This document shows positions 19,307 to 46,256 of a DNA stretch of 51,126 nt, one piece after another. Made by a program: the position numbers and the translations under genes. The stretch is taken from positions 1 through 51,126 of the forward strand of contig JAHJGM010000059.1 in NCBI GenBank assembly GCA_018824305.1, given 5' to 3'. Origin of the DNA: a bacterium. GTDB lineage: Bacteria; Campylobacterota; Campylobacteria; Campylobacterales; Sulfurimonadaceae. The stretch's first letter is position 1. Every line of letters starts with the position of its first letter. The notes beneath the pieces are model-generated. The model searched no databases and had not been told where the DNA came from. It was given only the letters and a program-made list of their open reading frames with translations.

Positions 19307-19391
19307 AGTTTATATCCTGTTATCTTTATACATAAGTTTTAAGCCAGCAATAAATATTCCATAATAGTAACCTATCGAAGCTATAAAAAGT

Positions 19392-44558: not shown

Positions 44559-44954
44559 ATGAAAATATTCATACTCTCACTTCTTTTTATCGTCACATCT
44601 TTGTTTGCCCAAGTCACAAAAATATACCCGAACAAAGATTTTTTAAGCAACAATATTCCCGTAGTCGACATAAGGACTGAGGGTGAATGGAAAGAAACAG
44701 GACTCTTAAAAGGTGCCATTCCCATAACTTTTTTTGATGAAAAAGGCAATTACAACGTTCCCGTTTTCTTAAAAGAGTTGTCAGAAAAAGTCGACGTAAA
44801 AAAACCATTTGCCCTAGTTTGCAGAACAGGAAGTAGAACAAACCTAGTTTCAAAGTTTCTATCCAATGAACTTGGCTACGATGTTTACGACTTAAGTGGC
44901 GGGATGATGTACATCATAGGTGAAAAACTACCTATAATTCCTTATAAAAAATAG
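44559..44954 (+). CDS. periplasmic rhodanese-domain protein
   Basis: The 131 residues start with a signal peptide (about 1-18, MKIFILSLLFIVTSLFAQ). A single rhodanese domain follows, with VVDIRTEGEWKETG near residue 35 and the active-site loop VCRTGSRTN near residue 88, whose Cys would carry a persulfide. Export indicates sulfur transfer or redox work in the periplasm, reasonable for a sulfur-metabolising Campylobacterota, but the partner is unknown. The gene stands alone. Confidence 0.92.
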   Translation: MKIFILSLLFIVTSLFAQVTKIYPNKDFLSNNIPVVDIRTEGEWKETGLLKGAIPITFFDEKGNYNVPVFLKELSEKVDVKKPFALVCRTGSRTNLVSKFLSNELGYDVYDLSGGMMYIIGEKLPIIPYKK

Positions 44955-44970
44955 TTTTTAACATTATTTC

Positions 44971-44986
44971 TGGCATAATAATTGCT
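44971..44986 (+). promoter_or_regulatory. sigma-54 (RpoN) promoter of the diguanylate cyclase gene
   Basis: TGGCATAATAATTGCT has GG and GC separated by exactly 10 bases and keeps the TGGCA and TTGCT consensus parts, close to the RpoN boxes of Campylobacterota flagellar genes. It lies 40 bp before the gene start, which puts transcription start near 44997. Confidence 0.75.
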
Positions 44987-44989
44987 TGC

Positions 44990-45006
44990 TTCCATAGAAT
45001 ATGGAA
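44990..45006 (+). promoter_or_regulatory. inverted repeat at the expected transcription start
   Basis: TTCCATA-GAA-TATGGAA is a perfect 7-bp inverted repeat with a 3-base spacer. It covers the position where transcription from the sigma-54 promoter should begin, so a repressor site is more likely than a complete RNA hairpin. Confidence 0.45.
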
Positions 45007-45026
45007 ACAAAATGAAGGGATAATGT

Positions 45027-46256
45027 TTGAAATTTATTGATACTCTTCGCATAAAAAGTAAGCTTTTATTTCTCTTCATACTCATAACACTTGGTCTTAC
45101 ATTCATCGGAATCGTCGGGACAGTAAACATCTCTTCAATGAAAAAGAATCTTGATTCTTTATATTTTGCTTCTTTTATTACTGTATTGGAACTAGATGAT
45201 ATTTTAAATACCTATCATATGAAACTTCAAACAAATATCTATCTGGCAAAAAACAATAGCATAAATCCTCAGCAAATAGCAGATATTATTGATCAATCTA
45301 TCAATAAAATAGACAAGAGCTGGGAGCATTATAAAAATCAGTATAAAAGCAATGATGAACTTCCATATGTCAACTATGCTACTATAGAGATTGAAAAATC
45401 AAAAAAATATTTTCAAGAATTGAAACAAGTATGTATGAACGGCTGCGATACAAGAAAGATTTCTATAGAAACATTAACTTCACAAATCACACATATCGAT
45501 ACTATCATATATAAACTAAGAGCCTATGAGATAGAGAGTGCCAAGTTTCAACGAAAAGAGCTTCTAGAGACATACTATGAAACGAAAATACGATTAGGAC
45601 TTATCCTGTTTTTTACAATAGGCGGTGTCTTACTCATCTCTTTTGCTGTTTTTAGAAGTATACAAAAAGACCAGTCAGATTTAGAAATCGCTTCCCGCAA
45701 GCTCAAAGAAGTAAATAAGAAACTGGAAAATGCCTCTTATACAGATTCGCTTACAAATCTACATAACAGACGATACTTCAATATGGTGTTTGACAGAGAA
45801 GTCAAACGTGCAAAGCGTGCAAGATCTCAGATAACATTTATGATGCTTGATGTGGACTTTTTCAAACAATATAACGATACATACGGACATATAGAGGGGG
45901 ATCTCGCGCTAAAAGCGGTTGCAAAAGTCCTCAAATCTGTTTTAAAAAGACCTAGTGATTTTGTTTTTAGACTCGGTGGAGAAGAGTTCGGAGTTCTTGC
46001 TACAGACATAGATGAAGAAGATAGTGCAGCACTGGCTCAAAAGATATGTACTGAGATGGAAAATTCAAAAATACCGCACAGTGCCAATAAGGTCAGTAAA
46101 TATTTAACCCTCTCTATAGGTGTCGTGTCATGTATAGCCGATGAGACATTAAATGAAGAAGATATCATCAAACAAGCCGATAAAAAGCTCTATGAAGCTA
46201 AGAAAAACGGAAGAAACAGATACATTATGAGCTGCGGGATCATTAGCTTAATATAA
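45027..46256 (+). CDS. membrane diguanylate cyclase (GGDEF domain)
   Basis: This enzyme should make cyclic di-GMP from two GTP. The 409 residues have membrane segments at about 13-33 and 190-209 around a helical periplasmic sensor that resembles four-helix-bundle receptors. A short coiled coil (about 212-240) leads to the GGDEF domain, with the active motif GGEEF (317-321) and an intact product-inhibition site Arg308-x-x-Asp311 five residues before it. The start is TTG at 45027 with AAGGGA 6 bases upstream. A nearby ATG at 45023 gives only a 5-codon frame. The sigma-54 promoter upstream suggests co-regulation with flagellar assembly. Confidence 0.94.
   Translation: MKFIDTLRIKSKLLFLFILITLGLTFIGIVGTVNISSMKKNLDSLYFASFITVLELDDILNTYHMKLQTNIYLAKNNSINPQQIADIIDQSINKIDKSWEHYKNQYKSNDELPYVNYATIEIEKSKKYFQELKQVCMNGCDTRKISIETLTSQITHIDTIIYKLRAYEIESAKFQRKELLETYYETKIRLGLILFFTIGGVLLISFAVFRSIQKDQSDLEIASRKLKEVNKKLENASYTDSLTNLHNRRYFNMVFDREVKRAKRARSQITFMMLDVDFFKQYNDTYGHIEGDLALKAVAKVLKSVLKRPSDFVFRLGGEEFGVLATDIDEEDSAALAQKICTEMENSKIPHSANKVSKYLTLSIGVVSCIADETLNEEDIIKQADKKLYEAKKNGRNRYIMSCGIISLI

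Follow-up and report, generated by a model that had tools for sequence, protein, structure and literature searches.

A diguanylate cyclase gene as a probable accessory member of the FlgSR-RpoN flagellar regulon in the Sulfurimonadaceae

We propose, with a probability of roughly 0.8, that a diguanylate cyclase (DGC) gene found in a Sulfurimonadaceae genome of 2.4 Mb (99.7% complete) belongs to the middle (class II) FlgSR-RpoN flagellar regulon as a single-gene, conserved accessory that is specific to this family. The first-pass annotation of the window, by which we mean the whole stretch of 51,126 nucleotides that was analysed, had placed this gene under RpoN control by way of the flagellar pathway. 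Comparison of sequences among genomes strongly supports that claim: the promoter is kept, FlgR is often the sole activator, the gene is absent (with one exception) where canonical FliF is absent, and the promoter type is shared with flagellar genes. Neither FlgSR-RpoN regulons nor sensor DGCs are new, but we found no earlier report in the open-access literature that places a DGC among the conserved members of such a regulon.

The DGC gene is preceded by the following features.

44559 to 44954, plus strand: rhodanese-like gene, co-directional and 5′ of the DGC gene (PF00581, E 2e-10)
44971 to 44986, plus strand: predicted sigma-54 (-24/-12) promoter TGGCATAATAATTGCT, exact GG-N10-GC, conserved before family orthologues
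44997, plus strand: predicted transcription start, from sigma-54 geometry (about 12 nt past the -12 GC)
45015 to 45019, plus strand: Shine-Dalgarno-like AAGGG, preceding the TTG start

A near-consensus GG-N10-GC element 40 bp before a GGDEF gene had been noted in the first-pass annotation, and its position, spacing and distance were all confirmed. Within TGGCATAATAATTGCT the GG occupies 44972-44973 and, after ten bases, the GC occupies 44984-44985, while the TTG start codon at 45027 lies 40 nt past the 3′ end of the motif. The geometry makes a +1 near 44997 plausible. Nowhere else in the 51 kb window is TGGCAYNNNNNTTGCW matched without a mismatch; once up to two mismatches are allowed, the number of matches is at chance level (42 observed versus 41 expected from shuffled sequence), and the exact match taken alone is weak evidence for a promoter.

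The conservation of the element is far more telling. DGC orthologues were found in at least 91 of 121 family genomes when the best 15 candidates per genome were scored, the family being Sulfurimonadaceae as judged from named loci and the 121 genomes a sample from a larger group. A search for the same promoter before these orthologues, which had been put forward as a check on the initial proposal, came out in its favour. The strict pattern TGG.A.{6}[TA]TGC occurred within 120 nt of the start in 80 of 88 orthologue upstreams, as against a mean of 0.15 and a maximum of 2 when the same 88 upstreams were shuffled, and GG-N10-GC was present at the same place in 86, the six beyond the strict set having a changed flanking base. 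The two orthologues without the element are those of genomes G009 and G018. When the elements were aligned, GG.A and TGCT were constant and the flanks were near background in information; the constancy is partly imposed by the search pattern, of which the T after TGC is free. Since the upstream DNA outside the element is highly divergent and protein identity among orthologues falls to 38%, the promoter is conserved by selection and not by recent common descent. Separately fetched GTDB loci, some of which come from the same genomes, show the same conservation.

A second site in the window served as a control. TGGAATATTTATTGCT (19346-19361, minus strand) fits the same pattern and lies 39 nt before lpxC, and it is kept in only three of eight genus members, showing that a convincing match and a suitable distance do not of themselves entail conservation. 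We therefore rejected it as a second sigma-54 promoter; most likely it either arose by chance or became a promoter very recently. Outside the family, GG-N10-GC within 150 nt was absent before all 11 Arcobacter-type full-length homologues, and according to published work Arcobacter has neither RpoN nor FlgRS (PMC9321776, PMC2147049). In 299 sampled genomes of the order, only two orthologue-like proteins from outside the family were found, neither of them with the element.

The genome carries two rpoN copies, one of them amid housekeeping neighbours, and only two true sigma-54 activators. One is FlgR-like, with a receiver-AAA+ organization, 387 amino acids and no HTH found in a domain scan, and the other is NifA-like (GAF-AAA+-HTH_8). 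FlgR of H. pylori, which likewise has no DNA-binding domain, works without binding DNA (PMC3930126), and FlgS is reported in all F3-class Campylobacterota (PMC9321776). A single activator was found in 46 DGC-positive family genomes and was FlgR-sized in about 39 among those listed, the type in these other genomes being judged by open frame length. In about 38 relatives the DGC and its promoter are kept with FlgR, again by size, as the only activator found, and among the single-activator DGC-positive genomes whose upstreams were read GG-N10-GC was present in all but G009 and G018. About half of the DGC-positive genomes carry a second activator, which could cross-activate the DGC promoter. The NifA enhancer TGT-N10-ACA occurred in one of 88 upstreams (200 nt), below its frequency in shuffled sequences. 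Because FlgR is the sole activator in many DGC-bearing genomes and NifA enhancers are absent, FlgR is very probably the activator of the DGC promoter.

As side observations on these factors, the second rpoN adjoins PII-like and other nif-type genes (neighbour names assigned by eye), and two rpoN genes are likewise present in many family members that have two activators. GAFTDA replaces GAFTGA in both the FlgR-like and the NifA-like activator; this G-to-D change has been described for epsilonproteobacterial FlgR (PMC3162934).

The link to the flagellum is seen both within this genome and across the family. A genome-wide search with the sigma-54 pattern gave 50 sites versus 34 for the reversed pattern, so that roughly a third lie above background. 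Among qualifying sites, defined in these pattern searches as intergenic and 14-90 nt before an open frame, nine precede flgB, flgE, flgH, flgI, flgL, fliD, fliK, fliW and a flagellin gene. The genome has 61 GGDEF-domain matches, and the DGC gene alone among them had a qualifying site. With FliF as the flagellar marker, the DGC was found in 90 of 107 flagellated family genomes and in only one of 14 with no FliF or a diverged FliF; that lone genome is 89% complete and in about 530 pieces. The association has a Fisher P of 1.5e-8, a value that ignores relatedness and overstates significance, the FliF-less genomes belonging mostly to two genera and amounting to about three or four separate cases (the two genera, G041 and G060). 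Seven genomes (G014, G017, G028, G029, G035, G040 and G041) have RpoN and a NifA-sized activator and lack both canonical FliF and the DGC; G060 has a diverged FliF and a FliG, with no RpoN, activator or DGC. The 17 flagellated genomes in which the DGC was not found indicate that it is dispensable for flagella, and thus an accessory and not a structural member.

Two other accounts of the promoter were weighed against these data. The element could be a chance match, with a sigma-70 promoter or read-through from the rhodanese-like gene accounting for DGC expression. The local arrangement lends itself to such a reading, given that the co-directional 5′ gene stops 16 nt short of the site in AT-rich DNA, and in this genus read-through is possible. 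Yet the rhodanese-like gene is not the immediate neighbour family-wide, the 5′ neighbours vary, and in many relatives the 5′ neighbour is divergent, which makes read-through impossible there; no sigma-70-like match was found between the two genes, and the frequency of the element before orthologues is far above that in shuffled sequence. We regard this account as extremely improbable. On its 3′ side the DGC gene often has a conserved convergent neighbour; we looked across the family for a conserved operon or a flagellar neighbourhood around it and found neither.

The sigma-54 promoter might instead belong to a nitrogen-fixation regulon in which NifA and the nif-linked RpoN drive the DGC under nitrogen limitation, and the genome does hold the parts that this would take, namely an HTH-bearing NifA-like activator and a second rpoN that adjoins PII-like and nif-type genes. 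Against it stand the 46 single-activator genomes, mostly with a FlgR-sized protein and nearly all with the promoter, the near absence of TGT-N10-ACA enhancers, and the absence of the DGC from genomes that retain RpoN and a NifA-sized activator but not canonical FliF. Control by NifA is thus very unlikely, and control by FlgR and sigma-54 remains our preferred reading.

The features of the DGC gene itself are as follows.

45027 to 46256, plus strand: diguanylate cyclase gene, 409 aa (Pfam GGDEF and 4HB_MCP_1; AlphaFold2 model)
45738 to 46220, plus strand: GGDEF catalytic domain (PF00990, residues 238-398, E 1e-50)
45948 to 45959, plus strand: RPSD allosteric product-inhibition I-site (RxxD), with R308 and D311 conserved in relatives
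45975 to 45989, plus strand: GGEEF active-site motif, invariant in 34 relatives

The start is the TTG at 45027, and TTG is used in all six genus orthologues; an in-frame ATG at 45012 meets a stop after three codons. The protein is ordered as TM1, a periplasmic four-helix bundle (Pfam 4HB_MCP_1, E 3e-14), TM2, a signalling helix and GGDEF, the TM helices having been assigned by eye from the sequence. The AlphaFold2 model places helices at 2-75, 81-103, 112-137 and 147-238 ahead of GGDEF, with a mean pLDDT of 84 and a pTM of 0.47 that leaves domain placement uncertain. The active site and product-inhibition site had been described as intact, and indeed both GGEEF and RPSD are present and conserved in relatives. 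D275, N283, D284 and GGEEF, the metal and substrate residues, are invariant across 34 relatives, R308 and D311 are conserved in at least 90% of these, and five residues separate the end of RPSD from GGEEF. The protein is thus predicted to be catalytically active. Among solved structures, the nearest in sequence are GGDEF proteins of the WspR type (3i5a, 3bre), which have the same active site and I-site, but WspR is a cytosolic protein with a receiver domain whereas the DGC spans the membrane twice and has its four-helix bundle in the periplasm. The periplasmic cysteines C136 and C140 were considered for a redox role, which we rejected because the pair is conserved in close relatives only.

By homology to the FlgSR checkpoint of C. 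jejuni, we infer a link between the DGC and flagellar assembly. In that species FlgS senses when MS ring, rotor and export gate have been put together and then activates FlgR, which leads to sigma-54 transcription of rod and hook genes (PMC7064773). In the scheme that we propose, completion of the corresponding structure would lead FlgS to phosphorylate FlgR, which, having no DNA-binding domain, would act from solution on the sigma-54 RNA polymerase poised at the -24/-12 element. Transcription of the DGC would then coincide with that of the rod, ring and hook genes, and the enzyme would be located in the inner membrane, where the periplasmic four-helix bundle, of the kind found in chemoreceptors, probably gates GGDEF and would supply a second, environmental input, and the RxxD site would cap the output. 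If the DGC is made only at the flagellar stage, the c-di-GMP that it produces would arise only in flagellum-committed cells. A local rather than global action is plausible, since the DGC is one of about 60 GGDEF proteins in the genome.

As to the outcome, the first-pass annotation had put forward a switch between swimming and attachment as no more than a perhaps, and we tentatively suggest a family-wide wiring in which one sensor-gated DGC is tied to the checkpoint, so that building a flagellum arms a later stop of swimming or attachment. The same control by FlgR and sigma-54 could instead feed back locally on flagellar assembly or number and not on the passage from swimming to attachment, a rival on the outcome only that we hold to be a serious possibility, somewhat short of even. 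The predicted co-expression with rod and hook genes and the absence of the DGC gene where the FlgR-RpoN system is missing would fit such a feedback, but 17 flagellated genomes do without the gene, and the single, weak PilZ match in the genome allows neither output to be assigned.

The FlgSR-RpoN class II regulons of C. jejuni and H. pylori have RpoN promoters and a FlgR activator as here, but we found no report of a diguanylate cyclase among their members. Another related system is the flagellum-dependent biofilm response of Vibrio cholerae, where the membrane DGCs CdgA, CdgL and CdgO also tie c-di-GMP to the state of flagellar assembly (PMC7098655); there incomplete flagella raise c-di-GMP, whereas here expression of the DGC is predicted after the first assembly step. 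Predicted sigma-54 sites before DGC genes are also found in E. coli at yeaJ and yhjK (PMC3162934), but they were not tied there to flagella, and the flagellar genes of E. coli are not under sigma-54 control (PMC7064773). The timing of flagellar genes in Campylobacterota has been defined in C. jejuni and H. pylori, and we found little on c-di-GMP there. The Sulfurimonadaceae are free-living in vents, redoxclines and sediments, and a single DGC with a predicted tie to the checkpoint, singled out among so many GGDEF genes, makes the question of swimming versus settling testable through one promoter and one gene.

One further feature lies over the predicted start.

44990 to 45006, no strand: palindrome TTCCATAGAATATGGAA, an inverted repeat over the predicted +1, from a terminator scan

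TTCCATAGAATATGGAA is a perfect palindrome that spans the predicted transcription start, and the terminator scan extends the inverted repeat around it to 12 pairs (44985-45011). Palindromes differing in sequence from that of this genome (G000) were seen by eye at the +1 position in two close relatives, G001 and G007, and among the orthologue upstreams none was seen beyond the genus. TTCCATAGAATATGGAA may act as an operator or fold into a hairpin at the 5′ end of the transcript; as a family feature, a stem-loop spanning +1 was rejected, none being present family-wide and the folds being weak.

Diverged FliF proteins occur in G041 (L234:3377-4921) and G060 (L233:7340-8701), neither of which has a FlgR-type activator. 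That of G041 ends in a FliG_C domain, and its gene lies directly between a hisC-like gene and dxs, a separate fliG being absent; the two are possibly relics or reworked flagellar bases. In the source genome a qualifying sigma-54 site also precedes the gene of a TPR membrane protein, PflB-like by eye only, and intergenic sites precede those of a 112-aa unknown protein, a DnaJ-domain protein, an EF-hand protein and a 61-aa unknown protein (L011, L022, L031 and L132). These last four are candidates for further membership of the flagellar regulon.
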